Below are positions 11,812 to 63,553 of a stretch of DNA of 64,000 nt, in pieces. The stretch's first letter is position 1, and each line of letters starts with the position of its first letter. The position numbers were made by a program, and so were the translations under genes. The notes under the pieces are model-generated. The model saw only the letters and a program-made list of their open reading frames with translations. It did no database searches and was not told where the DNA came from. The stretch spans positions 248,001-312,000 of the forward strand of contig JAJNNC010000009.1 in assembly GCA_021730635.1 (NCBI GenBank), given 5' to 3'. Source of the stretch: Catalimonadaceae bacterium JC749 (GTDB lineage: Bacteria; Bacteroidota; Bacteroidia; Cytophagales; Cyclobacteriaceae).

Positions 11812-14800
11812 TCAAAAGGCAGGACGATTTTCTTCCAGCAGGGCTTGGTACGTTTTTACAAATTGCTGGTATTCCGAAGCGGGAATCAGTGTCTTTAATT
11901 CCTGCAAAGTCTCTTCTGCATAACTTTCCAGACCAGCCAAAATACTTTGCCGTATATAGGCTTTTAAAAGGGTAGGCGCCCCCGGATTGGTTTGTATGGC
12001 ATCGAGTAATAATTGATAGGCAAGTATATTATTTTCTTCAGGATACAGATAAGCCAGGGCCGCCAAAAACCCTTCTTCATAAAAGGGATTGTTGATCAGG
12101 TACGCATAGGCGTTTCGGGCGGTAGCCGTATCTTTGGCTACCTCAGCTCTTTTTGCCTGGTATAATTGCTTTTTATGACGATGCCAGAGCGAAATTTCCG
12201 GCAGCTGTTCTACAGAGTGCGCTATCTCAGCAAACCCTTCTGTTTTCTCCGTATGAAGTACTTCTAACCAGGAAAGATAATCTTTACCCAATGGAGCCAG
12301 CGCATCACGATCCGATTTCAGGAGAATAATCTGTTCATTCCACCAGGGCCAAGTTTCAGTAGCACGCTGCCGTAACAGGTCATGCAAGGCCAGCACCTTG
12401 TAATTAGGGTCTTTAAATGCCTCTAACACATTACTGATTGAGGACTCCTCCAGCTCCCCACCCCGGTACCGGAGGAAAAGATAACGAAAGGCATCATCTT
12501 CCTGTGTGATGTATTGAGACAGTGCCTGTTGATCTAACACTTTTAGCATATCCTGAGCAACCAGCTTCACCCCTTCCGACGTTTCAACCGAATCGCTTAA
12601 TAAATGCTGCCAAACAGTTCTTACACTACTCCAATCGGGAGCAACTCCAGTGGCTGTAGCTTCTGTCAGGCTGATAGCCTCCCTGAATGCCGCATCCTCA
12701 AAAGAGGATTGGGCCGCTTTCTTAAAATACCGCATAGCCACGGCAGGAGCTTGCTGTTGTAAAGCCCACAATCCTAAGACATTGTTGTAATAGCCTGTTT
12801 TGAAAGGATTCAGGGACTGTAGGCGGTCTAAAATTTTGAAAGCATCCACAACACGGTTGCGGGCATAATTGGCCAATCCCAGCCCATAGGAAAGCGGTTC
12901 GTTGAACCTCCCGTTTTCAGCTTTGTCTGCTAACAGTGCCACCTGCCGGAGCAGGGTAGTATCTGCTTCCGACCGTTGATGAAACAGATAATTGTAGGTA
13001 TAGGCAAAGCTGAAACTACCCAACAGGGAATCTTCCGGCATTTGCCAGGTAAACGCCTGGGATGCGGAAGATGCTTCCGGACGCTGGTTGTATAACAGTA
13101 AAGTGTTGATCTGATTTTGAATATAATTTGGGTCGGTCACCGTTTCCTCCACCAACGAATCAACCGAGAAGGAAATCGAACCGGCCGACCTGGCAAGGAT
13201 GGACAGGGTATTGGCCTCAGCCGCCTTTCGGGTGTCCGCATGTTCCATCGCTTCCTGCAGGTAGAGTAAGGCTGAGTCCGTAACGGAAGTTCTTCCATAA
13301 ATCAAAGCCAGATTGTTCTGCAGATAAGCGTTATCGGGAAATTGTTGTAGACCTTGCCTGACATTGAACATTGCATCAAAAAACTGATTATTTTCAATCA
13401 GCGCATTACTATAATTGACCAATGCATAAGGTGTAGGATTTTTATTCAGGGCTTCTTTAAAATAATAAGGAGCCAGCATCTGATCTTGATGTGCCCTGGC
13501 TAACGTTCCCAGCGAGTAATTAGACCGGTGATTATTATATCCATACTGATCTCCCAGTTTGTAATACTGCTCTGCCACAAAGGTATCGCTACTGGATAGG
13601 TTCAAATCCCCAATGCCATTGTAATATCCGGCCACTGCCTGGTAAAAGGGAAACATACTAGCCCGGAGAAAAAAGGCTACCACTGCTATGGTGCCAACGA
13701 TCTGGGCTGTGCCATAGGGAAAGGTGGTGGGCTTATACATCACCCGGTACACCTGTTTATTTTCCATCAACGGCCCCACAAAATTGGCTATGATATATAA
13801 AAAGAAAAGCAATCCATACCCCAACTGACTAAAGACAATACTGTCTTCCAGGGTTTCTACCATGGGATCGTTGGCCGTTGCAAAAAAATAACTACAGGTA
13901 GCCAGCGTAATGATGGCCAGGGTAAGGTAGACAAACGCTCCCACCGGGTTAAAAGGAAATATAAACTGATACTGTATTTCTCGCCACGAAAACTCCCAAA
14001 TACCAATCACAATCAATACAGCCAGCAGGAAAAAAGCATTCAGGTATAATATCTCCCACTGGATGTTGCCAGCATTCTTTAGGTACAACAAGAACACATT
14101 GGCCAGGTATACGACAGAAAGAACAGAAAAATGAACGATACTATTTTTACTGTGCGCTGTGTTGCTACGGGTCACCAGCATTAAAAAGAAACTGATGGCT
14201 ACATGTCCCAGCAAAAAGATAAAAATGATACTCAGCACCACCGGTACGATGATACCATAGCTCACCAGCATCAGCACGGGATGAGCTGCTTCTGAAAAAA
14301 CCGCGATGAACAATGCAAAAATCAGGGTAATCACCGTAAAGACAAGCATCCTGGGCCCTAAACCCACTTCCGGCCGGATACTTCGGAAATAATACGTAGC
14401 AGGAAGGTACAAGGACAAGGCGACTATCAGTCCCAGCTTATCAGTTTCGCCAAACAGAAGCAATTGCTCCAGCTTGAAACTGATCAAAATACCAATCAGG
14501 AGCAATACACCGAAATAGTACCAAAACTGCCGGAGGGTGCTGATGACAACCGATAAAACGATTAAACTAAGCCCCAGTATCAGTAGAAAAGCATACGCAG
14601 CCTGTTCATTCACTTGTATAGAGCTCCCCCGGTATGTTTCACTGACCACATAATTATCGGCCGTAAAAGAAAAATCGAACAACCCTACCTTGAACTGATC
14701 CACTGCAACGGGCACTTCATCAATTTCAGAAAGCAGCTCCCAGCGAATGACAGGGGCAGGGCTACGCCCATAACTGACTCCAAACCAAACCAGAACGGAG

Positions 14801-14877
14801 GCCAGCACAAGGAGTAAAAAATAGAAAAAAAAGCGGCTGTGGGGATGCCAGGAATTCCAAAAGCTAAGTTGATTCAT
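11812..14877 (-). CDS. large multi-spanning membrane protein with TPR region, function unknown
   Basis: 1021-residue protein. The first 410 residues hold about 12 hydrophobic helices (for example FFFYFLLLVLASVLVWFG near residue 20 and IVHFSVLSVVYLANVFLLYL near 245). They include one larger loop at residues about 37-90. From about residue 420 the protein is soluble and helical with TPR-like pairs (LARAHQDQMLAPYYFKEALN, ALIYGRTSVTDSALLYLQEA, YLQNNLALIYG). I do not recognise a catalytic motif. The layout, membrane block then long TPR superhelix, suggests an inner-membrane platform for a periplasmic or cytosolic complex. Neighbours (adenosyltransferase, gatC) give no clue. Confidence 0.7.
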   Translation of the reverse strand: MNQLSFWNSWHPHSRFFFYFLLLVLASVLVWFGVSYGRSPAPVIRWELLSEIDEVPVAVDQFKVGLFDFSFTADNYVVSETYRGSSIQVNEQAAYAFLLILGLSLIVLSVVISTLRQFWYYFGVLLLIGILISFKLEQLLLFGETDKLGLIVALSLYLPATYYFRSIRPEVGLGPRMLVFTVITLIFALFIAVFSEAAHPVLMLVSYGIIVPVVLSIIFIFLLGHVAISFFLMLVTRSNTAHSKNSIVHFSVLSVVYLANVFLLYLKNAGNIQWEILYLNAFFLLAVLIVIGIWEFSWREIQYQFIFPFNPVGAFVYLTLAIITLATCSYFFATANDPMVETLEDSIVFSQLGYGLLFFLYIIANFVGPLMENKQVYRVMYKPTTFPYGTAQIVGTIAVVAFFLRASMFPFYQAVAGYYNGIGDLNLSSSDTFVAEQYYKLGDQYGYNNHRSNYSLGTLARAHQDQMLAPYYFKEALNKNPTPYALVNYSNALIENNQFFDAMFNVRQGLQQFPDNAYLQNNLALIYGRTSVTDSALLYLQEAMEHADTRKAAEANTLSILARSAGSISFSVDSLVEETVTDPNYIQNQINTLLLYNQRPEASSASQAFTWQMPEDSLLGSFSFAYTYNYLFHQRSEADTTLLRQVALLADKAENGRFNEPLSYGLGLANYARNRVVDAFKILDRLQSLNPFKTGYYNNVLGLWALQQQAPAVAMRYFKKAAQSSFEDAAFREAISLTEATATGVAPDWSSVRTVWQHLLSDSVETSEGVKLVAQDMLKVLDQQALSQYITQEDDAFRYLFLRYRGGELEESSISNVLEAFKDPNYKVLALHDLLRQRATETWPWWNEQIILLKSDRDALAPLGKDYLSWLEVLHTEKTEGFAEIAHSVEQLPEISLWHRHKKQLYQAKRAEVAKDTATARNAYAYLINNPFYEEGFLAALAYLYPEENNILAYQLLLDAIQTNPGAPTLLKAYIRQSILAGLESYAEETLQELKTLIPASEYQQFVKTYQALLEENRPAF

Positions 14878-25077: not shown

Positions 25078-27507
25078 TTATTTTGCACCAGCCATAGATT
25101 CAATGAGTTCAAGCTTATAATTATCCAGTGTCTGAAGATATCCTACCCTTTCTTTGATCTGAGCACCGTATTTACGCTTTTCCTGAGCAGAGGTAAGCCC
25201 CAGGTAAATACGTTTTTTGTTAAGTGCGCGGGCCCGCATAATTCCTTCAAACAGAATTTGTTTGTAAACTTTGTATTCTTTTGAATAATTGTAATCCATC
25301 CCTAAGATGACTCCACAATAACTTTCCTTGGTTTTATAATTGAAAGATACACCAATCATACTATTGTCTCCGTCCTTCAAATATTTACTTTTTAGATGAA
25401 ATGTAATGAATTCCCAATTAGGATCTTCATTCATCTCTGAAAATAGAGTAAATGGAAATTCAATATTATTAAATGCGTAGTTGCTATTACTCACATTTTT
25501 GTAAAGCTCATAGGCACGTTTTAATTCGTTTTTATCAAGATGCGTCTTGGTTACAATCTCGTAATAAGATTGGTATTTGAGCACATCTTTACGAACATGG
25601 CTACGAGACTTAGGCGATAAAAGCTGTAAGTAATTTTCTGTACTGGTCCATGCTAATGGTTCTATCACTGTACCCTCCGGTAAGTTGATTTTTAGGTAAC
25701 CTTGAGTGTGGAAGATGCTATTCAGATCCTGATCATTGGCATCAACATCCCGGATGATAACCATGCTGCATTGATATTTTTCTTTCAAAGATTCTACTTC
25801 TACACTTAATAATTTCAACGCTTCATGATAGTACGGATGTTTTTTATCCAGATAAAGATGCTCACCGTCTGTGATAAGTGCACCCATACTGAGTACCCGT
25901 GAGGTCAGATAGTCAGGGTTACTCTTACGAGCTGTTTCAATCTTTTCGGATACAGAAGCCGGCGCTAATACATCGTCTTTCCACCAGGCCACTGTAAAAA
26001 ATGTTGCTAATACAATCTTTTGCTGACGGTCACGGATGATTAGATAAATCATTTTCCAGTTATGGTGAGGGTTCTCATGACCTGAAAACACTTTCTCATA
26101 AAAAGCCAGGGCATTCCAATTAAAAGCTCCTCTTTCTCCTAATATAGCATTCCATTCCGATGGGTTTACATCCTGGATCGAGGTTTCCAGTTGTACACGA
26201 AGGAAGTCTTCTGATGACTTGGCTAATGTAATTTTTTCATTAATTAGCGGTAGTTTAAAAGCAGAACGTACCTGATTCATGGAATACCCTTCTTCCTCGA
26301 GTGCTTTAGGGTAATGGTATTTCATGCTCTCCACCAGTTTTTTTATCTCTTCTTTCTGATTGTGACGTGAAATTGTAAATCTAATACCTGTATTTTTGAC
26401 AGGGACTACCGGAAAAGTAGCCACATTCATATAAAAACCATCATTCATCAGTCTGCGCGCAAAGTTATAAGCAACGGCCGGCAGTGCAGTACCAATAAAA
26501 TGTACTGGGCAAACATTTTCCTGAATCAACGGCAGTTGTGACTCTCTGATGAGCTGATTACAATAATTAATTTTTTCTGCCAGATCACGTTGTAAATCAT
26601 AAATTTCTTCTGATAAATGTATTTTGGCCGATGCCAGGGCTGCTGCCACACTTGAAGGTTCTAACTGAGCAGAAAAAGTCTGTGGCCCTCCAAAGATACG
26701 GTAGGATTCATACAATTGGTCGTCACCAAATGCTACTACCCCCCCACTGGCTCCGAATGACTTACTTAAAGTCCCGATCAAAACTATTCGCTCCCGCAGT
26801 TCTCCTAACTGGCTCATCACGTAGCCAGCACCGTGTTTTCCAGCCCAACTCATGCCATGCACATCATCAATATAAAGATGCAACTGATGATATTTCTCCA
26901 TGAGCGGGAGTAATTCTTTCAGTGGAACCACATCGCCATACATTGAATACACTCCATCAGCGGCATACCAGATTTTTTGATGTTTGCTCCGCAGTTGCTG
27001 AATCGTATCTTCCAGCATCCCTATATCATTGTGTTTGATGATCTGAACAGGAATCCCTCGGGGTTTCAACAATTGACTTGCATTTTGCACACTGGCATGT
27101 ACTTGATGATCAAGAATCAACACGTCTTCGTCCCGCACAACAGTCGGGATCACTCCAATATGAGCTAGTGTGCTATTTTTCGTAATGACAATGGGTCGGC
27201 GATAAATCCGTTGGACACTTTCTTCCAATTCTCCATACATGACAAAAGAAATGTAGGTTTTGGAAAGAGGAAATTGCGTACCGTATCGTTGTATAGCATC
27301 AATGGCAGCATCTTTTAATCGCTGATCCTGCTCTAAACCTAAATAACCAGTTGTTCCGAAATGATATAGCTTTTTCCCTTTAATCTGAATATATCTCCCG
27401 TCAAAAAAGTCTCCTTCAGTATATAGATGGACAAGCTGTTCTTTCTTTGCATTAAGAATAAAGTCGCCAATTGTATCTAACAAATGGTTATGTTTTGATT
27501 TAGCCAT
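25078..27507 (-). CDS. fused alpha-oxoamine synthase-like PLP enzyme and GNAT/FemAB-like acyltransferase
   Basis: 809 residues from the ATG at 27507 (a TTG nine codons upstream is less likely). Residues about 1-400 form a fold-type I PLP enzyme of the alpha-oxoamine synthase family (relatives: KBL, BioF, serine palmitoyltransferase, CqsA). Signatures are LDHQVHASVQ, DGVYSMYGDVVPL, YIDDVHGMSW and the PLP lysine in TLSKSFGASGG (Lys near residue 247). Residues about 430-800 resemble the BioF2/FemAB-type acyltransferase fold (SRSHVRKDVLKYQSYYEI; KRKYGAQIKERVGY). Such enzymes condense an amino acid with an acyl thioester; the second domain may acylate the product. The product is unknown: sphingoid or sulfonolipid base, or an alpha-hydroxyketone-like signal, are options. 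It is divergent from the STAS-kinase operon. Confidence 0.8.
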   Translation of the reverse strand: MAKSKHNHLLDTIGDFILNAKKEQLVHLYTEGDFFDGRYIQIKGKKLYHFGTTGYLGLEQDQRLKDAAIDAIQRYGTQFPLSKTYISFVMYGELEESVQRIYRRPIVITKNSTLAHIGVIPTVVRDEDVLILDHQVHASVQNASQLLKPRGIPVQIIKHNDIGMLEDTIQQLRSKHQKIWYAADGVYSMYGDVVPLKELLPLMEKYHQLHLYIDDVHGMSWAGKHGAGYVMSQLGELRERIVLIGTLSKSFGASGGVVAFGDDQLYESYRIFGGPQTFSAQLEPSSVAAALASAKIHLSEEIYDLQRDLAEKINYCNQLIRESQLPLIQENVCPVHFIGTALPAVAYNFARRLMNDGFYMNVATFPVVPVKNTGIRFTISRHNQKEEIKKLVESMKYHYPKALEEEGYSMNQVRSAFKLPLINEKITLAKSSEDFLRVQLETSIQDVNPSEWNAILGERGAFNWNALAFYEKVFSGHENPHHNWKMIYLIIRDRQQKIVLATFFTVAWWKDDVLAPASVSEKIETARKSNPDYLTSRVLSMGALITDGEHLYLDKKHPYYHEALKLLSVEVESLKEKYQCSMVIIRDVDANDQDLNSIFHTQGYLKINLPEGTVIEPLAWTSTENYLQLLSPKSRSHVRKDVLKYQSYYEIVTKTHLDKNELKRAYELYKNVSNSNYAFNNIEFPFTLFSEMNEDPNWEFITFHLKSKYLKDGDNSMIGVSFNYKTKESYCGVILGMDYNYSKEYKVYKQILFEGIMRARALNKKRIYLGLTSAQEKRKYGAQIKERVGYLQTLDNYKLELIESMAGAK

Positions 27508-27519
27508 AAATTGCACTTT

Positions 27520-27551
27520 TATAGTATAGAACAATTTTAAGCAATACTATA
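27520..27551. promoter_or_regulatory. inverted repeat upstream of the oxoamine-synthase fusion
   Basis: TATAGTAT (27520-27527) and ATACTATA (27544-27551) form a perfect 8 bp inverted repeat with a 16 bp spacer, 13 bp upstream of the 27507 start. It sits in the divergent promoter region. This is a possible operator, but the local AT richness makes chance plausible. Confidence 0.35.
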
Positions 27552-27672
27552 CATTTATATATTAATATTTATGGCTTTTTCAAGGAAAAATATGAAAAGT
27601 AGGATATATAAATAAAAGTCAATTTTATATTATAATAATTTAATAATATTGAGGTGTTAATAACTAAACGTC

Positions 27673-28050
27673 ATGATTAAAACAATTCTTGAAAACGATC
27701 TAGTCAGTTTTGAGCTTAAAGATGGAATCCTATATGGTAAATATAAAGTAGCAGAGATAGATATAGAAACCGCAAAAATTGCTACTGTTTTCCGACGACA
27801 AATTACTGGTGATATGGCCATCCCCTCTATTGCTGACATATCCCTGGTAAAAACAGTCTCAAAAGAAGCAAGAGAGTTTATCTCTTCGCCCCAGGCGGGA
27901 GAGGATTTGTCTGCGCTGGCTGTAATAATGAATAATCCCGTTGCCCGTACTATGGGTAACTTCTTTCTCAAGTTTCATCAACCGAAATATCCATTTCGTT
28001 TTTTTACGGATATCGATGAAGCTACAACATGGATTAAACAATATGTATAA
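27673..28050 (+). CDS. small STAS/SpoIIAA-like protein (DUF7793-like), copy 1
   Basis: 125-residue soluble protein. The pattern is a short beta-sheet start (VSFELKDGILYGKYKVAEID), a helix (ETAKIATVFRRQI), a central ISLVKTVSKEAREFISSP, and an end with FFTDIDEATTWIKQYV. It resembles the STAS-like DUF7793 group of Bacteroidota, as I recall it. It shares this layout with the next gene. It lies at the head of a three-gene run with 3 bp and 5 bp gaps. STAS proteins usually act as phosphorylation- or ligand-dependent partners; here the neighbouring sensor kinase is the obvious candidate partner. No signal peptide is present. Confidence 0.72.
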   Translation: MIKTILENDLVSFELKDGILYGKYKVAEIDIETAKIATVFRRQITGDMAIPSIADISLVKTVSKEAREFISSPQAGEDLSALAVIMNNPVARTMGNFFLKFHQPKYPFRFFTDIDEATTWIKQYV

Positions 28051-28053
28051 ATA

Positions 28054-28437
28054 ATGGCTAGTATGTATTTAGAGACAAAACACTTTGTTTCAGAATTAAG
28101 AGAGAATATCATTCTCGTACAGTTTAAGCCTAATTTGCACCTTACTTACGAAGATGCTGAGCAGATAGTGAACGAACGTCTCTTATATTACCAGAATTTA
28201 GAAGTGCCTGTATTGATAAAAAATGCAAAAATAAAAGGCATTGATAAGGCGGCACGTGAGTACTTATTTGATAAAGAGAAGGGCTTGAAAAATATAAAGG
28301 CTGTTGCTCTTGTACATGCCAATGCTATCAATAAAATGTTAGCCACCTTTATCTTTCATCATCATACTCCTTCTGTCCCCCATCGGATGTTTACAGATGA
28401 GCAAAAAGCATTCTTGTGGCTTAAACAATATGTATAA
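28054..28437 (+). CDS. small STAS/SpoIIAA-like protein (DUF7793-like), copy 2
   Basis: 127-residue paralogue of the preceding gene. Shared landmarks are IDKAAREYLFDKEKG against VSKEAREFISSPQAG, MLATFIFHHHTPSVPHRMFTD against the matching block of copy 1, and the identical terminal pattern WLKQYV/WIKQYV. Sequence identity is moderate, so the duplication is old and the copies may bind different partners. It begins 3 bp after copy 1 and ends 5 bp before the kinase gene, so it is clearly in the same operon. Function as a regulatory partner is inferred. Confidence 0.72.
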   Translation: MASMYLETKHFVSELRENIILVQFKPNLHLTYEDAEQIVNERLLYYQNLEVPVLIKNAKIKGIDKAAREYLFDKEKGLKNIKAVALVHANAINKMLATFIFHHHTPSVPHRMFTDEQKAFLWLKQYV

Positions 28438-28442
28438 TATTT

Positions 28443-29723
28443 ATGCATAATAATCATTCAAATGCAGAGTTTGACTTCCGAGTTACCGATCCATTCCCAT
28501 CGTTAGATACCCGACAGCAGCGGATTGAGCTGATAAGCCAGGTACTTATGGAAATTGCGGGAGGTAATTTTGAGCAAATTGCCCCAATTTCTGATCATTT
28601 CGACGAAATTGACGCCATTGCTTCAGGTGTCAATATGCTGAGTGAAGAATTAAGGGAAACGGTTATTTCCAGAAATTACCTGGATAGTGTGTTGAGAAGC
28701 ATAGTTGATATGCTTTTTATATTTGATGAGCAATTTGTAATCCAACAAGTCACTCCAAAAGTTTGTGAATTATTAAAAACCAATGAAAATAACTTAGTTG
28801 AATACCCTATAAATGTTTTGTTTGATGGCCGAAAAAAGAGATTTCTTCAACGTATAAAAGCTTCATTGCGAGAAAAAGAAATCCTCTATAATATAACTAC
28901 CTCCTTCAAGATGGCCAACAAAGAAAAACTTCCGGTCACGATTTCTTTCTTTACATTGAAAAATAACCAAAACAAAACCACTGGATATTTAATGATTGCC
29001 GATGATGTAAAAGAAAAAATCCTTATGTCTAATGCGCTAAAGCAAAGAAACGAGGAGTTGAAAACCCTGATTTATAAAACCTCCCATGATTTGAAAGGTC
29101 CGTTGGCCAGTATGTTAGGCCTTTTCAATTTATTAGAAACTGAAAAACAGGATATACTAACTCTTCAATGTTATCTATCTCATCTAAAAAATAGTGCACT
29201 TAAACTTAACAATACCATTAAAGGGCTTCTTGAGGTTGGCATGGTTGATCAGGGAGAACTTACTGAGCAAGCCTTTAGTATGTATCATACCATTCAAAGT
29301 GTGGTTAGTAGTTTGGATAATTTTCCTGGGAGAGAAGAGGTTGACATAAAAATTCAGGTTGATAAAAAATTAGAAATCACTTCACAAGAAAATTTTATCC
29401 GTTCCATTTTGCAGAATTTAATTGAAAACAGTATCAAATACCGTCAACTCAATCGTAAAGGGCCCGCAATTGTCAGTATCATTGTCCGTTCTCAAAAAGA
29501 CAGGATATTATTAACAGTAAAAGATAATGGGCAGGGAATGGATAAAAATGTCATGAAAAAAGCTTTCGATATGTTTTATAGAGGAAATGAAAGCTCCAAA
29601 GGAAGTGGGTTGGGGTTATTTATTGTCAAATCCAATGTCGAAAAACTAGGAGGGCAAATCAAAATCAGAAGTAAATCCAATGAAGGCACAGAAATAAAGA
29701 TTTATCTTCCGATAGAAAGATAA
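28443..29723 (+). CDS. soluble HAMP-like/PAS sensor histidine kinase
   Basis: 426-residue kinase with no membrane segment. Residues about 25-75 look like a HAMP-type helical module (EIAGGNFEQIAPISDHFDEI, then VNMLSEEL). A PAS domain follows (about 80-200, DMLFIFDEQFVIQQVTPKVC). The dimerisation/phosphoacceptor helix contains KTSHDLKGPLASM (His near residue 218). The HATPase domain has the N box NLIENSIKYR, G1 DNGQGMD and G2 GSGLGLFIVKS. It is the third gene of the STAS-STAS-kinase operon. No response regulator is adjacent, so output is through a distant regulator or through the STAS partners. Confidence 0.9.
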   Translation: MHNNHSNAEFDFRVTDPFPSLDTRQQRIELISQVLMEIAGGNFEQIAPISDHFDEIDAIASGVNMLSEELRETVISRNYLDSVLRSIVDMLFIFDEQFVIQQVTPKVCELLKTNENNLVEYPINVLFDGRKKRFLQRIKASLREKEILYNITTSFKMANKEKLPVTISFFTLKNNQNKTTGYLMIADDVKEKILMSNALKQRNEELKTLIYKTSHDLKGPLASMLGLFNLLETEKQDILTLQCYLSHLKNSALKLNNTIKGLLEVGMVDQGELTEQAFSMYHTIQSVVSSLDNFPGREEVDIKIQVDKKLEITSQENFIRSILQNLIENSIKYRQLNRKGPAIVSIIVRSQKDRILLTVKDNGQGMDKNVMKKAFDMFYRGNESSKGSGLGLFIVKSNVEKLGGQIKIRSKSNEGTEIKIYLPIER

Positions 29724-44652: not shown

Positions 44653-45846
44653 ATGGTGATGAAAAAATATATCCTTAGTTTGTTACTGTTGATCAGCCTA
44701 GTGGCTTGTGAGAAAAAGGATGAAACATTGAATCCAGGTACAAGCTTTACCAAAATATTTGACAACCCTGCATTTTCAGGCGATATTCATCCGCTCTCTG
44801 TCGTAGAAATTCCGGATAGCGGATATCTCATATTGGCAGCTAAAGATACCTGGAACGTTTATCTGCTTAGAACCCAAGAAAACGGAGATTTTACCTGGGA
44901 ATTATCGCTGGGCGAGCCCTATGTCAATCCCCTGTCGGGTATTATAGAAAAGGAGGGTCAATGGTATATCGCTTGCATGGATGAGGTCACACTGGGAACT
45001 TACCTGTTGCAGATTGATCTTAAAGGAGGCACACCAGCCATTGCTGCTTACTACCCTGAAATCACCTATCCTTTAAGTATTTCAAATACACCGGATCGGG
45101 GCCTCCTCCTGCAAGGTTATGACCGTACCTCCCGAAGCACCACCCTCACCAAAATCAACAAAGATTTCACCATGGGATGGCAACACAACTATGATATTCT
45201 GGAGGATAAAGAAGAACAGTTGATCAATCATTTGACCCGTACCGGACCGTACTTTCCTTTCTTCAACGGTTTTACCGGCACAAACGGAAATACAGGTTAT
45301 TATTTCTTCAACGGTTACTTCAATTTTACATTATCACTGGTTTTTGTTGATGCCTCAACCAGGGAGATGTTAGGAAACATCAATGGATTCAGAGAGGAAG
45401 GATACATCAATGCCTTACACCCTATGCAGGATGACTTTTTCGCCCTGTCAAGAATCAGTTTTGATGACAATTACCTTCTACCCAAAAAAGAGGTGAACGT
45501 TCGGGAAATAAGCTTCAGTGGAGATTTTGTATCCAACCGATTTCCGGAAATATCGGCCCATGCCAAAGTAGTCATCAAAGAAAAAGAGCTGATTTCGTCT
45601 TCGGTTGTTGTCTATGGTACTCATTCCAAGAACAATCAGTTGTTGTTATATGCCTACGATAAAGAGGAGGCCACTCTGCTGGGAATGGAGCATATCGGCC
45701 AGACGAATCCTTATCAGATGGGGGATTTTATCTTCACCGCAGATGGGGGGCTCCTGGTTTTGAGTAAAACTTATCTGGCCAAACGGTTTCCCAGATTGGC
45801 CCTTTTCAAATTAACGGAAGAAGAAGTATTGGAAATGGTTCGCTGA
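44653..45846 (+). CDS. lipoprotein, probable beta-propeller-like, function unknown
   Basis: 397-residue lipoprotein with signal ending in ISLVAC (Cys19). The start may be the ATG at 44653, abutting the previous stop, or the ATG at 44659 (MKKYILS). The mature sequence shows repeated strand-rich units with DSGYLILAAKDT, DRGLLLQGYDRT and DGGLLVLSKTYL, reminiscent of beta-propeller blades. It is paired with the beta-barrel upstream. Its 3' end overlaps the convergent glycosyltransferase gene by 76 bp. I infer a cell-surface binding role only from the fold-like pattern. Confidence 0.75.
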   Translation: MVMKKYILSLLLLISLVACEKKDETLNPGTSFTKIFDNPAFSGDIHPLSVVEIPDSGYLILAAKDTWNVYLLRTQENGDFTWELSLGEPYVNPLSGIIEKEGQWYIACMDEVTLGTYLLQIDLKGGTPAIAAYYPEITYPLSISNTPDRGLLLQGYDRTSRSTTLTKINKDFTMGWQHNYDILEDKEEQLINHLTRTGPYFPFFNGFTGTNGNTGYYFFNGYFNFTLSLVFVDASTREMLGNINGFREEGYINALHPMQDDFFALSRISFDDNYLLPKKEVNVREISFSGDFVSNRFPEISAHAKVVIKEKELISSSVVVYGTHSKNNQLLLYAYDKEEATLLGMEHIGQTNPYQMGDFIFTADGGLLVLSKTYLAKRFPRLALFKLTEEEVLEMVR

Positions 45847-59263: not shown

Positions 59264-62200
59264 ATGATTTCTTTGAAAAGTATATTTTTAACCACAACGG
59301 CTTTCTTTTGGACCAGAAAAGTAAAGGTGCCATTGGCTCTTTTATTTTTATGTCTCTGCTTCACACTACAGGGGTATGCACAATGTGCGCTTTATAGTAA
59401 TCCGGGTAACAATGTGATCAGCGAGCCAAGGACTTGTGCCCCTAATCTTTTTCAGTGGGAAATTACTTATTCGGTACGGACAGGAAGAGCAGTACAGTTT
59501 CTGATAGACTGGGGTAATGGTACTGATACGATTTCAGCACCTACCAACGTGGGTACGGCTGGTATGTTTACTGTTTATGTAGACACTGTAGAATATGTTT
59601 ATCCAAAAGGAGGAGATGACTGTAACTACCTGCCTACTGCATATGTCATTATTGATGGCGTTCAATGCTTAAATTCAGACCAGAGCCAAAGTATAACCGT
59701 ATGGGATCTGGATGATGAGAATGGAGGACAGCCCAGAATTGATCCTCCCCTGTATCGGGTTTGTCTGGGAGAAAGTGCTACCATCAGTTTTAGAGATAAT
59801 AGCATTTGGAACTGTGTTCCCAACTCAGGAGAAAACGATCGCATCAATGATCTGGGAAGATGGGTGCAATGGATTTACGGAACTGGCCCGGCAGGAAACA
59901 GGATTCCCAACGTAGAAGTCAATGGAGCACCACGAACCTATAGCTTTGATGGCCCGGTAGAATACCTTCCAGGCCCCATCACAGCACCTAACTCTCAGAG
60001 TTATGATATCTTCGTACCGGCCACTTTTAACCCCGCAGATATCGGTAAAGAATTTGAGGTTCAACTTAGGAACTGGAATATCTGCAACCCTTATGACGCC
60101 AATTTAGGAGATGGCAATCCCTTAAATCCTGTGGACCCCAATGGAGACAGTGCCTATATTGAAACGGAAGCCAGGATTGTGATCGTCAAAAAATCTGAAC
60201 CTGATTTTCGCACACGCTTAAATAACAGTGCAGGAGCAGTAAAAACAGAGTTTTGCCTGGGAGAAACTATTTTCTTTCAGGATCAGACACCTTCTATCCC
60301 GGATGCAAATTTTAAGTATGAATGGAAAATATATGACGATGCTGCAGGCACCACCCTATTAAGAACGCAACCTGGTAAAAACATCGCCTTTTCTTCCTTT
60401 CCTACTAAAGGAACAAAAATGATTAGTCTCACTGTCAGAGATGAGAACTCCGTCGGACAATGTGGTGGCACCATTACAAAATTCATTGACATTCTCTCAG
60501 TAGCAGATGCTCAAATTACCGTTACCGATGAACTGGACCAACCACTCAATTCATTATGCTACGATCCGGCCAACCCAACAGCATTTAAGGTTAAGTTTAC
60601 AGATAATTCTACAGATTTTGATCCGGCCACCTCTCAGTGGCAATGGAATTTTTATCACCATAATGGTGCTACTTACCAGAACGATAGTACCAAAAACGGA
60701 GCAGGTATACAGGAAAGTTATATCGCGACCTACACCCAACCTGGTTCCTATATGGCTGTGCTGACCAATACAGCAAGTAATGTTGACTGTACAACCCAAG
60801 ACACTGTTTTCGTTCATATTTATCACAAACCGGCAGCCGATTTTGATGCTTTACCGGTATGTCTGTCAGATAGTACGGAATTTATCAGTACGGCTACTAT
60901 CCCGACCCTTGTGAACAATGACGACATCGCCCAATATGGCTGGGACTTTGATTATGACGGGATTACTTTTACCCCTGATACCACCACCACTGAGGCTACC
61001 CCATTCAAGCATAAGTATGACCTGCCAGGCACCTATCAGGTTGCGCATCAGGTAATCACGACGAAAGGAAACTGCTCTGACATGGTGGTAAAGGATGTAG
61101 AGGTTAAGCCCATTCCTATCGTTACATTCCAGGCTGATCAGATCATTGGTTGTTCTCCCTTAAAAGTCAATTTTACCATAGACACACCCCTGTCCAGTCA
61201 ACCCGTTTCGATAAACGCTTACATCTGGCATGTTCTGAATCTTAAAACCGGTACAGAGAACACTTTCAATGTAGCGCCCACGGCCGGTACGTTCAATGCT
61301 CCCGATTTTGTCAACAATCAAATTACGGCTATTGATCATCTGTATGAAGTATGGCTGGAAGCTGTTCCTGGGAATGGTTGCCCTGCTATCAGCGAAAGAA
61401 TAATCATCACTGTTTTTCCCGGACCAACTTCTGAATTTAATATTACTAATTTGTTGGGCACGGAGAACAACTGTTCGCCAAGAAACTACCAATTTCAGGT
61501 AACTGCTGCTACCCAGGCCCTAATTCCGGATGCCTATCACTGGACCATATTGGATGAATCTAACCAAAGCGTGGTGGTAGATCAAACCATATCCGGTATG
61601 GAGCCCAACTTCAGTTATACACTTCTCAACGAGGGCGCTAATACAAAAAAATATAGGGTTAGACTGATTGCAGAAAGGTTAGGCATGTGCTTCAGTGCCA
61701 CCGAAAAGATCATTTTTGTCAACCCTGTTCCAAGCTCTGCTTTTTCAACCACACTGATTGAGTCAGACTGTCAATTAATGACTTTTCATGTAGAGGCACA
61801 ACAGAAAGGGCTCAATTATGATTGGACCATCAGCCCTCAACCTATCAACTCACCAGACCTGAGCCAAAGCCAATTTGAGCTGGTATATGATAAAAAATTA
61901 GGGGCTTCCTATGAGGTGGACATTTCGCTGAAAACAACCAACATGGTGGACTGTGAAAGTACGGAAACGGTTGATCAAATGACGATTCACCCACGTGAGT
62001 TGTTAGATGCTTCCTTTTTTGTGAATCCTTCTATTCTGGAAATTCCCAGTAAAACCGTTAGCATCAACAATAATACTATCAACAGCAGTTGGACTTATCA
62101 GTGGGATTTCGGTGATGGCACCACTTCCACGGAAGAGATTCCCGGTTTCCATGAGTATGAAACCTATGGAGAATACTGGATTAAACTCACCATACATGGA

Positions 62201-63553
62201 CAGTATTGTTCGGTGCGGGATTCTGCCAAAGTGATCATTAAGCAAACACTACCACAAACTGACTTCGAATTTGTACAGTTGGAAGATTGTCAGCCCTTGG
62301 CAGTAACGTTTACTAACCTGTCGCAATATGCAGAGGAGGACACCTATCTTTGGGATTTCGGCGATGGTGCTACTTCCACTGAGATTAATCCCAGCCATAC
62401 CTATGCTTCACCAGGCGTTTACAGAATTTCGTTGAAAGCCAGCAACAGTTTAGGCATCATAGTAGAAAAGCAAAAAGATTTTATCGTTGATTTTTCTCAA
62501 CTTCCCAAGGCTGCATTCAGTACCTATGGATTAGGTCCGTTCTATCCCAAACAAAATGTCAATTTTCGGAACCAAAGCCAGAATGCCAGTAGCTATTTCT
62601 GGGATTTCGGTGACGGAGAAACCAGCGAGGAAATAGAACCGGTGCATCAATTTGAAGAACCTGGCACTTACGATATCACCCTGATCATTCAGAATGAAAT
62701 AGGGTGTATCGATACCTTGAAACAACCTTTCACGATTGATCCTTTGATACCAATCGTTGATTTTACCTATGAACCACCCCAGGGTTGCCGTCCACTGACT
62801 GTACAATTCAGGAACATGAGCCGCTATACAGATCCAAAATCCTACTACTGGAGTTTTGGAGAAGGGGAAGGTTTCTCCACAGAAGAGAATCCTACCTACA
62901 CCTATTATGAAGCTGGTATTTATACGGTTACCTTGGAAGCCAAAAACAGTGCTGGGGTAAAAGTTACTGAAATGAAAGAGTTTAGTGTAGAGGTATTTGA
63001 TAACCCTATCGCCGGTTTTAAGCTCAGACCTGAAAAAACTTTCCTGGGCGAAAACATATATTTTGCAAACCTGAGTATAGGGGCTAAATATTACTTCTGG
63101 GATTTTGGTGACGGCAATACCTCTTCTGAATTTGAACCTGTTTACCAGTATAACCGCCCAGGCGCCTATGATATCACCCTCATTGTAGAAAATGAGAAAG
63201 GGTGTGTGGATACTTTGAAAAAGGAAAACGCAATTGTGGTAGAGGAAGGAGGAAAAATCATGGTTCCAAATGCCTTCACACCCTCAACCGATGGACCAGG
63301 GAGTGTAGATCCATCCGGAGACAGTAAAAACGACGTTTTCTTACCCATTATTGAAGGGATTACCTCCTATCATCTGCTGATATTTAATCGTTGGGGAGAA
63401 TTGATGTTTGAAACCTATGAAAAGACTTACGGCTGGGATGGTTACTACAAAGGCAGGCTCTGTCCGAAGGATGTGTATGTGTATAAATTAGAAATCAAAT
63501 TCAGCGACGGCAGATCAGAAACCCTGGTCGGAGATGTTACCTTAATCCGGTAA
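59264..63553 (+). CDS. SprB-like PKD-repeat surface protein with gliding-motility C-terminal domain
   Basis: 1429-residue secreted protein with a signal peptide (VPLALLFLCLCFTLQGYAQ, cut near residue 40). It has an N-terminal region with a WGNGTDT loop, then PKD and PKD-like domains: WDFDYDG near 570 and five WDFGDG/WSFGEG copies from about 945 to 1300. The last about 90 residues form the gliding-motility-associated C-terminal domain (NAFTPSTDGPGSVDPSGDSK, then WDGYYKGRLCPKDVYVYKLE). This is a type B T9SS sorting signal. It is likely an adhesin or motility protein. Directly downstream is a PorP/SprF gene, the usual partner. Confidence 0.92.
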   Translation: MISLKSIFLTTTAFFWTRKVKVPLALLFLCLCFTLQGYAQCALYSNPGNNVISEPRTCAPNLFQWEITYSVRTGRAVQFLIDWGNGTDTISAPTNVGTAGMFTVYVDTVEYVYPKGGDDCNYLPTAYVIIDGVQCLNSDQSQSITVWDLDDENGGQPRIDPPLYRVCLGESATISFRDNSIWNCVPNSGENDRINDLGRWVQWIYGTGPAGNRIPNVEVNGAPRTYSFDGPVEYLPGPITAPNSQSYDIFVPATFNPADIGKEFEVQLRNWNICNPYDANLGDGNPLNPVDPNGDSAYIETEARIVIVKKSEPDFRTRLNNSAGAVKTEFCLGETIFFQDQTPSIPDANFKYEWKIYDDAAGTTLLRTQPGKNIAFSSFPTKGTKMISLTVRDENSVGQCGGTITKFIDILSVADAQITVTDELDQPLNSLCYDPANPTAFKVKFTDNSTDFDPATSQWQWNFYHHNGATYQNDSTKNGAGIQESYIATYTQPGSYMAVLTNTASNVDCTTQDTVFVHIYHKPAADFDALPVCLSDSTEFISTATIPTLVNNDDIAQYGWDFDYDGITFTPDTTTTEATPFKHKYDLPGTYQVAHQVITTKGNCSDMVVKDVEVKPIPIVTFQADQIIGCSPLKVNFTIDTPLSSQPVSINAYIWHVLNLKTGTENTFNVAPTAGTFNAPDFVNNQITAIDHLYEVWLEAVPGNGCPAISERIIITVFPGPTSEFNITNLLGTENNCSPRNYQFQVTAATQALIPDAYHWTILDESNQSVVVDQTISGMEPNFSYTLLNEGANTKKYRVRLIAERLGMCFSATEKIIFVNPVPSSAFSTTLIESDCQLMTFHVEAQQKGLNYDWTISPQPINSPDLSQSQFELVYDKKLGASYEVDISLKTTNMVDCESTETVDQMTIHPRELLDASFFVNPSILEIPSKTVSINNNTINSSWTYQWDFGDGTTSTEEIPGFHEYETYGEYWIKLTIHGQYCSVRDSAKVIIKQTLPQTDFEFVQLEDCQPLAVTFTNLSQYAEEDTYLWDFGDGATSTEINPSHTYASPGVYRISLKASNSLGIIVEKQKDFIVDFSQLPKAAFSTYGLGPFYPKQNVNFRNQSQNASSYFWDFGDGETSEEIEPVHQFEEPGTYDITLIIQNEIGCIDTLKQPFTIDPLIPIVDFTYEPPQGCRPLTVQFRNMSRYTDPKSYYWSFGEGEGFSTEENPTYTYYEAGIYTVTLEAKNSAGVKVTEMKEFSVEVFDNPIAGFKLRPEKTFLGENIYFANLSIGAKYYFWDFGDGNTSSEFEPVYQYNRPGAYDITLIVENEKGCVDTLKKENAIVVEEGGKIMVPNAFTPSTDGPGSVDPSGDSKNDVFLPIIEGITSYHLLIFNRWGELMFETYEKTYGWDGYYKGRLCPKDVYVYKLEIKFSDGRSETLVGDVTLIR

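Follow-up and report, generated by a model that had tools for sequence, protein, structure and literature searches.

We report a conserved gene arrangement in a 64,000-nucleotide stretch of DNA from Catalimonadaceae bacterium JC749 (contig JAJNNC010000009.1, positions 248,001 to 312,000; hereafter the window). At positions 25078-29723 of the window, a gene that fuses an alpha-oxoamine synthase (AOS) domain to a FemX-like acyltransferase faces two DUF7793 genes and the gene of a soluble HAMP-PAS histidine kinase, and most related fusions keep both kinds of partner beside them. This arrangement suggests an undescribed molecule-making and molecule-sensing system in several Bacteroidota groups. 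The reading that we prefer, tentatively and at a little under an even chance, is that the genes form one functional module, in which a small-molecule synthase has a carrier-like protein and a soluble sensor of its own. We base it on the nearly all-or-none presence of the two partners beside the fusion, the concentration of HAMP-PAS proteins in genomes with a fusion, a sensing part that is kept while outputs are swapped, the invariance of the catalytic residues, the likeness of DUF7793 to a proposed carrier of nonpolar molecules, the tandem sites of one variant, and a relative that lost the acyltransferase yet retains both partners. The features of the locus are as follows:

25078-27507, minus strand: fusion protein of 809 amino acids (aa), AOS domain plus FemX-like acyltransferase (open reading frame, Pfam, alignment)
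26209-27507, minus strand: AOS domain, dependent on pyridoxal 5'-phosphate (PLP), residues 1-433 (alignment, PDB profile matches)
25081-26208, minus strand: C-terminal acyltransferase domain, residues 434-809, putatively a FemX-like tandem GNAT (PF13480/PF04339 in relatives, Foldseek on model)
27508-27672, no strand: divergent spacer of 165 bp, no operator motif recognised (spacer alignment)
27673-28050, plus strand: DUF7793 protein 1, STAS/SpoIIAA fold (Pfam, model)
28054-28437, plus strand: DUF7793 protein 2, 27% identical to DUF7793 protein 1 (Pfam, alignment)
28443-29723, plus strand: soluble HAMP-like and PAS histidine kinase, 426 aa (Pfam, hydropathy)
28443-29042, plus strand: HAMP-PAS module, common to the sensors of relatives with other outputs (profiles)

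The open reading frames bear out the layout of the initial annotation, which had placed the fusion divergent from two STAS-like genes and a soluble PAS kinase with gaps of 3-5 bp. Specifically, 165 bp separate the fusion from the first DUF7793 gene, 3 bp the two DUF7793 genes, and 5 bp the second of these from the kinase. The ATG start gives the fusion its 809 aa, and an upstream TTG would yield 818 aa.

Linkage of the fusion with DUF7793 and HAMP-PAS genes

The survey covers 46 fusion loci from 39 genomes, with many close relatives among them. DUF7793 stands beside 41 of these fusions and HAMP-PAS beside 39, and the layout with a divergent DUF7793 is beyond chance. The partners are nearly all-or-none: five loci have neither (L047, L056, L058, L060, and L213; loci, genomes, and family codes carry our own handles, L, G, and f), and two, both on short contigs, have DUF7793 with HAMP-PAS unseen (L022 and L028). 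Among the first 33 loci, mapped with profiles, divergent DUF7793 is found at 29 and HAMP-PAS near 27, two of the latter being weak (51 bits). Both partners are also present at 12 of the 13 loci outside profile building (L213 has neither). Eleven of the 13 are congeners of profile loci (g82 and g94), and the two that represent new genera are a locus with both partners and L213. Linked loci belong to six family codes (f1, f5, f9, f13, f16, and f26), and their fusions reach down to about 37% identity with the fusion in the window, while those of f2, f15, and f17 are unlinked. The conserved neighbourhood on which the initial annotation had made its proposal depend is thus present across six family codes. 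Because the outer neighbours in the window (S41, lipase, rhamnosidase, and NmrA genes) are unmatched around the other fusions compared, with one weak match for its AI-2E gene, we take the conserved unit to run from the fusion through the kinase.

The fusion itself is sparsely distributed. Searched at E up to 1e-60, 241 genomes of the order yield 23 with a match: a fusion in 16 of them (22 loci, of which some are cut off or split) and no more than a solo AOS relative in the other 7. In the phylum sample (E up to 1e-90), 9 of 395 genomes match, namely that of the window, seven of f26 that together have eight fusion loci, and another that has a solo AOS; three more fusions come from named contigs labelled uncultured Flammeovirgaceae. 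The C-terminal domain alone exceeds 300 bits in 29 of 390 genomes of the order, always in fusion frames. Its further matches reach at most 83 bits and lie in frames of 376-437 aa, with the exception of the second fragment of the split G192 copy.

Genome-wide match counts indicate that HAMP-PAS is nearly private to the fusion and that DUF7793 is not. Of 380 genomes sampled from the order, 27 encode HAMP-PAS (E up to 1e-18) and 46 encode DUF7793, and a fusion is also present in 23 and 25 of these, respectively; these co-occurrence counts join samples of 380 and 390 genomes and assume that G763 and G766 lie outside the 380, and Fisher tests on them leave common ancestry out of account. Among 28 HAMP-PAS matches above 80 bits in 21 genomes, 24 are at a fusion, a degraded fusion, or the solo AOS of G130. 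Fifteen of the 28 are the profile's own rows, and of the remaining 13, a fusion or degraded copy accounts for 9, the last 4 being elsewhere. For DUF7793, 17 genomes give 75 matches, 25 of them at a fusion or at the G130 solo AOS. The share varies by genome: all DUF7793 genes found in G004, G177, G096, G209, and G072 sit at the fusion, as do two of three in the window's genome, G016 has 18 matches and none at its fusions, and G052 and G102, whose fusions have no DUF7793 beside them, yield zero DUF7793 genes.

Other copies were found apart from intact loci. The window's genome encodes a second HAMP-PAS kinase (L113, G000:C9, about 94106-95254; 382 aa, 123 bits) with no adjoining fusion or DUF7793, possibly an orphan receptor. 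A degraded copy (L114, G307:C15) consists of a 169-aa AOS remnant adjoining intact DUF7793 and HAMP-PAS genes. In L234 and L239, from genomes outside the fusion matches, a kinase-like gene is immediately followed by a pair of DUF7793 genes, so DUF7793 may serve kinases more widely.

Sensor outputs and operator-like sites

The kinase in the window carries HisKA and HATPase_c above the Pfam cutoffs, which places it among two-component histidine kinases; its PAS_9 and HAMP matches fall below cutoff. Its hydropathy maximum of 1.26, against 2.72 for a membrane control, indicates that there is no membrane segment, and the 30 HAMP-PAS proteins measured (maximum 1.73 against the same control) are likewise soluble. 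The output fused to the HAMP-PAS part differs among relatives. It is a histidine kinase in the window (Pfam) and in L012-L014 and L043 (profile), a HisKA_3 kinase in L055, and a receiver-bearing hybrid kinase in L044, L045, L212, and L216 (domain scan) as well as, assigned by length and position, in L046 and the other f13 loci. L080, L082, and L084 (domain scan) have an AraC-type HTH_18 domain instead, as do, again by length and position, the other f26 loci, and the f16 proteins, mostly about 215 aa, have no recognised output domain. Since AraC and output-less variants exist, the two-component label is not valid for the module as a whole. In the tree, the f26 fusions fall within the group (100/99) to which the window, L043, L044, and L045 belong, and given this nested placement the output was probably exchanged while the enzyme, DUF7793, and the sensing part remained together.

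The AraC variant also has recurrent sites in its spacers. All eight f26 spacers contain two half-sites, TCCYNNNNNGNYAA, exactly 21 bp apart and oriented towards DUF7793 (seven perfect, one with one mismatch), and in five of the eight loci a second tandem site sits directly behind the AraC-type gene, ahead of the following one; a scan of the eight loci at up to one mismatch returned no further tandem site. The motif was derived by eye from these spacers, so finding it there does not test it independently. Across the seven genomes with f26 fusions, at up to one mismatch, it gives 39 matches against 8 for the reversed pattern. The 39 comprise the 8 spacers, 10 further sites in the vicinity of the module or of its degraded copy, and 21 dispersed ones. 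The count is 1 and 0 in two relatives without a detected fusion (reversed, 1 and 2) and 7 in the window's genome (reversed, 4). Three loci have an operator-like third site, at a distance of about 1.4 to 2.7 kb upstream of a SusC-SusD operon. The initial annotation had proposed shared regulation from the divergent layout; the tandem sites support it for the AraC variant only, and in the window's own spacer, aligned with four relatives, no shared or 21-bp-type motif is recognised.

The f26 loci have further neighbours of their own. In two of those scanned, the fusion is closely followed on its own strand by an RteC-family gene (L080, 6915-7745, and L084, 10168-11007). In L080-L087, the AraC-type gene is followed by a MauE-family gene (scanned in L080) and by a small DUF6520-type protein, which exceeds the DUF6520 cutoff in L080, L084, and L151 and falls below it in L081; for DUF6520, we found no paper in the open-licence literature.

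Enzyme domains and the DUF7793 proteins

In the AOS domain (Aminotran_1_2, residues 50-393 of the fusion, 83.5 bits), K249, H137, D214, H217, and R376 are invariant in all 16 aligned fusions. Mapped through an Spt alignment, they are the equivalents of SulA Lys251, His140, Asp217, His220, and Arg376 (PMC9304779). With the Schiff-base lysine, the stacking histidine, the ring aspartate and histidine, and the substrate arginine of a fold type I PLP site all present, the domain belongs to the alpha-oxoamine synthase superfamily. At the position of SulA Asn53, where the Spt family has Asn (or Tyr), all 16 fusions have Thr or Cys and so fall outside that family, and at that of Lys281, the signature of SulA/cysteate acyltransferases, they have Ala (6), Gly (9), or Val (1), so that membership in SulA was rejected. 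Judged from these residues, the domain looks active, with an altered carboxylate-activating position.

None of the NCBIfam equivalogs comes near its cutoff. The best model is an uncharacterised subfamily, PRK07505 (285.9 bits, cutoff 342), and the domain scores 170.5 bits against 426 for BioF, 154.6 against 460 for KBL, 159.5 and 161.3 against 640 and 500 for the two serine palmitoyltransferase (SPT) models, and 69.8 against 428 for the CqsA/LqsA model NF005526, which nothing in the window's genome passes. Against 54 listed PDB sequences, the AOS profile matches Alb29 best (8XHA, 197.7 bits), followed by Spt (176) and, lowest of all, CqsA (66). The initial annotation had counted CqsA among the related enzymes, and these CAI-1 synthases are evidently not close.

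In the tree, fusions and solo AOS proteins form a single clade (30 rows, 100/100) against 17 other AOS rows. The domain stands outside the KBL and BioF groups (100/100), inside which the initial annotation would have expected it if its proposal were wrong; the BioF-labelled outgroup rows are themselves below the equivalog cutoff, and the SPT-like label is loose since its four rows fall below every NCBIfam cutoff. The tree contains five of the eight f26 fusions and 16 others, with profile scores standing in for CqsA, SulA, and ALAS; duplicates (L160, L161, L164, and L172), a broken frame (L171), and a multidomain protein (L173) were excluded, and a second tree also omits the long branch L011. 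The solo AOS of G130 is nested among the fusions, having lost the acyltransferase and retained DUF7793 and HAMP-PAS. Another member of the clade, from the window's genome (L007, G000:C23:362000-380000; 438 aa, 43% identical), lies next to a hybrid-type kinase of 980 aa and to a receiver-like protein, with DUF7793 absent. The AOS-like domain of L173 (G102:C48) lies within a frame of about 1000 aa and by score (132 bits) falls outside the fusion clade.

For the C-terminal domain, the FemAB label relies on relatives and on a structural model, since PF04339 has no match in the window's genome at E up to 0.001; the family matches in Caulobacter vibrioides. In the fusion of the window, only Acetyltransf_6 (PF13480) is seen in this half (residues 633-778), at 18.1 bits and below its cutoff of 22, whereas among the aligned fusions PF13480 occurs in 15 of 16 and PF04339 in 10 of 16 (E up to 0.1). 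The top Foldseek matches are FemX (E about 1e-7, TM about 0.3, for a model with a mean predicted local distance difference test, pLDDT, of 62), and a search of PDB sequences with the C-terminal profile returned nothing up to E = 1.

The two small genes belong to DUF7793 (PF25056; 98.9 and 103 bits, cutoff 26), and the second also passes the SpoIIAA-like model (29 against 25). By E-value, the best PDB match of the DUF7793 model (mean pLDDT 85.6) is the SpoIIAA-like 2q3l, at 18% identity; STAS anti-sigma antagonists rank after it with higher TM-scores. A profile search of the PDB returned 3bl4 at E 1e-10, with 2q3l insignificant. Proteins of the 2q3l type have been proposed to be CRAL-TRIO-like carriers of nonpolar molecules (PMC2954212), and DUF7793 could be a carrier beside a lipid-like product. 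In an alignment read by eye, six of seven DUF7793 proteins have Asp, and one has Ser, at the putative equivalent of the phosphorylatable serine of SpoIIAA (STAS anti-sigma factor antagonists). No mention of DUF7793 was found in the open-licence literature, subscription papers being outside the scope of this and our other literature searches.

Elsewhere in the window, proteins of 1021 and 397 aa (11812-14877 and 44653-45846) have zero Pfam matches up to E 0.001, and a 1429-aa protein (59264-63553) combines PKD domains with a CHU_C type IX secretion signal domain. A PADLOC scan of the four module proteins for anti-phage defence gave zero matches up to E 0.01.

Readings of the locus and known systems

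If the genes form one module, the AOS domain would condense an amino acid with an acyl thioester, with loss of CO2, to give an alpha-aminoketone, and the fused FemX-like transferase would acylate the new amine. The putative N-acylated aminoketone, being nonpolar, would be bound or presented by DUF7793; the soluble HAMP-PAS protein would read the product or the loaded DUF7793 and drive its fused output; and the output would act on the divergent promoters, making the module self-regulating, within one cell or between cells. The narrower proposition, that this is an undescribed form of Bacteroidota chemical signalling in which an N-acylated aminoketone with DUF7793 as carrier, HAMP-PAS as receptor, and lineage-specific outputs serves as a cell-cell signal or an intracellular lipid-like messenger, is less likely than not; in the AraC variant, the receptor would then bind the 21-bp tandem operator directly. 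Of the earlier proposal of a small-molecule or lipid signal synthase paired with an intracellular sensing module, the conserved linkage and architecture stand, and the product and ligand stay putative.

Several observations weigh against a single module. Neither partner adjoins 5 of the 46 fusions or eight of the nine mapped solo AOS loci, all but that of G130. Four of the 28 HAMP-PAS matches are distant from any fusion, and 50 of the 75 DUF7793 matches lie away from a fusion or solo relative and point to other uses. G752 has a DUF7793-DUF7793-HAMP-PAS kinase operon about 0.5 Mb from its fusion (L228, G752:C1), and in G692 a HAMP-PAS kinase and DUF7793 are separated by about 560 bp that contain no fusion (L229, G692:C3). 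Product, substrate, and ligand are all putative, and the PAS domain might sense another cue. FemX uses aminoacyl-tRNA, so the donor may also be an aminoacyl group.

Almost as likely as the module is a dedicated biosynthetic enzyme whose equally dedicated sensor responds to something different, such as redox, membrane state, or a precursor, with a lipid or metabolite as the enzyme's end product and no signal. The same linkage and operator evidence fits, PAS domains bind many kinds of cofactor, and a MauE-family gene follows the sensor in the AraC variant. However, the sensing part was kept with the enzyme while outputs were swapped, which a ligand tied to the enzyme fits somewhat better.

It is improbable that the fusion makes a structural, sphingolipid- or sulfonolipid-like membrane lipid by joining Spt-like and CerS-like steps, with neighbours that tune membrane composition. 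The order of AOS and acyltransferase parallels Spt and bCerS (PMC11087976), and Spt is the second best PDB group; yet the domain is below every SPT cutoff, the SulA-specific lysine is missing, the distribution is sparse (29 of 390 genomes), and the partners in the profile-mapped loci are sensors and not a CerR-like reductase, for which no aimed search was made. Far less probable is a CqsA/LqsA-type alpha-hydroxyketone autoinducer synthase with its kinase, a candidate that we rejected: the layout resembles the cqs and lqs clusters (PMC3376566), but the NF005526 score and the last place of CqsA in the PDB ranking argue against membership, the acyltransferase is fused, and the sensor is soluble and unrelated. 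A chance or purely inherited neighbourhood with no functional link has a negligible probability and was likewise rejected, since, although many of the 46 loci are close relatives (e.g. L051, L052, L054, L061, and the f13 loci), linkage spans six family codes and fusions down to the low identity given above, the outer neighbours are unmatched save one weak AI-2E, and operators span the divergent spacer in the AraC variant.

If the module reading is true, Bacteroidota possess a compact molecule-and-receptor system, DUF7793 gains its first functional context, and a single sensing module rewired to several outputs amounts to a natural experiment. Should the molecule turn out not to be a signal, the AOS-acyltransferase fusion would still be an enzyme worth assaying. 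In the open-licence literature, we found no paper that combines AOS with sensor, STAS, or quorum-sensing themes.

Known systems resemble parts of the module. Alb29, which tops the PDB ranking of the AOS profile, uses L-glutamate and acyl-CoAs to make aminoketones in a natural product pathway (PMC11906848), but the similarity is low and its solved chain of 401 aa has no fused acyltransferase. SulA shares the AOS fold and PLP-site residues and differs at the signature lysine. In bacterial ceramide synthesis, AOS condensation by Spt is followed by acylation by bCerS, both cytoplasmic (PMC11087976); the order is alike, with bCerS compared by its described steps alone, whereas here both activities would reside in one polypeptide. 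FemX/FemAB-like acyltransferases are the top structural matches of a low-confidence C-terminal model, for which the PDB sequence search up to E = 1 found no match, and for DUF7793 the likeness to 2q3l comes with low identity and with higher TM-scores for STAS antagonists.

In layout, the module parallels CqsA/CqsS and LqsA/LqsS, in which the gene of an AOS-fold synthase likewise adjoins that of a sensor kinase (PMC3376566). CqsS and LqsS are six-helix membrane kinases, however, whereas the sensor of the module is a soluble HAMP-PAS protein, and the module further differs in its distant AOS clade, fused acyltransferase, DUF7793 partner, and exchangeable outputs. By analogy, the best reading is that the module would work like these synthase-sensor pairs while standing outside their family.

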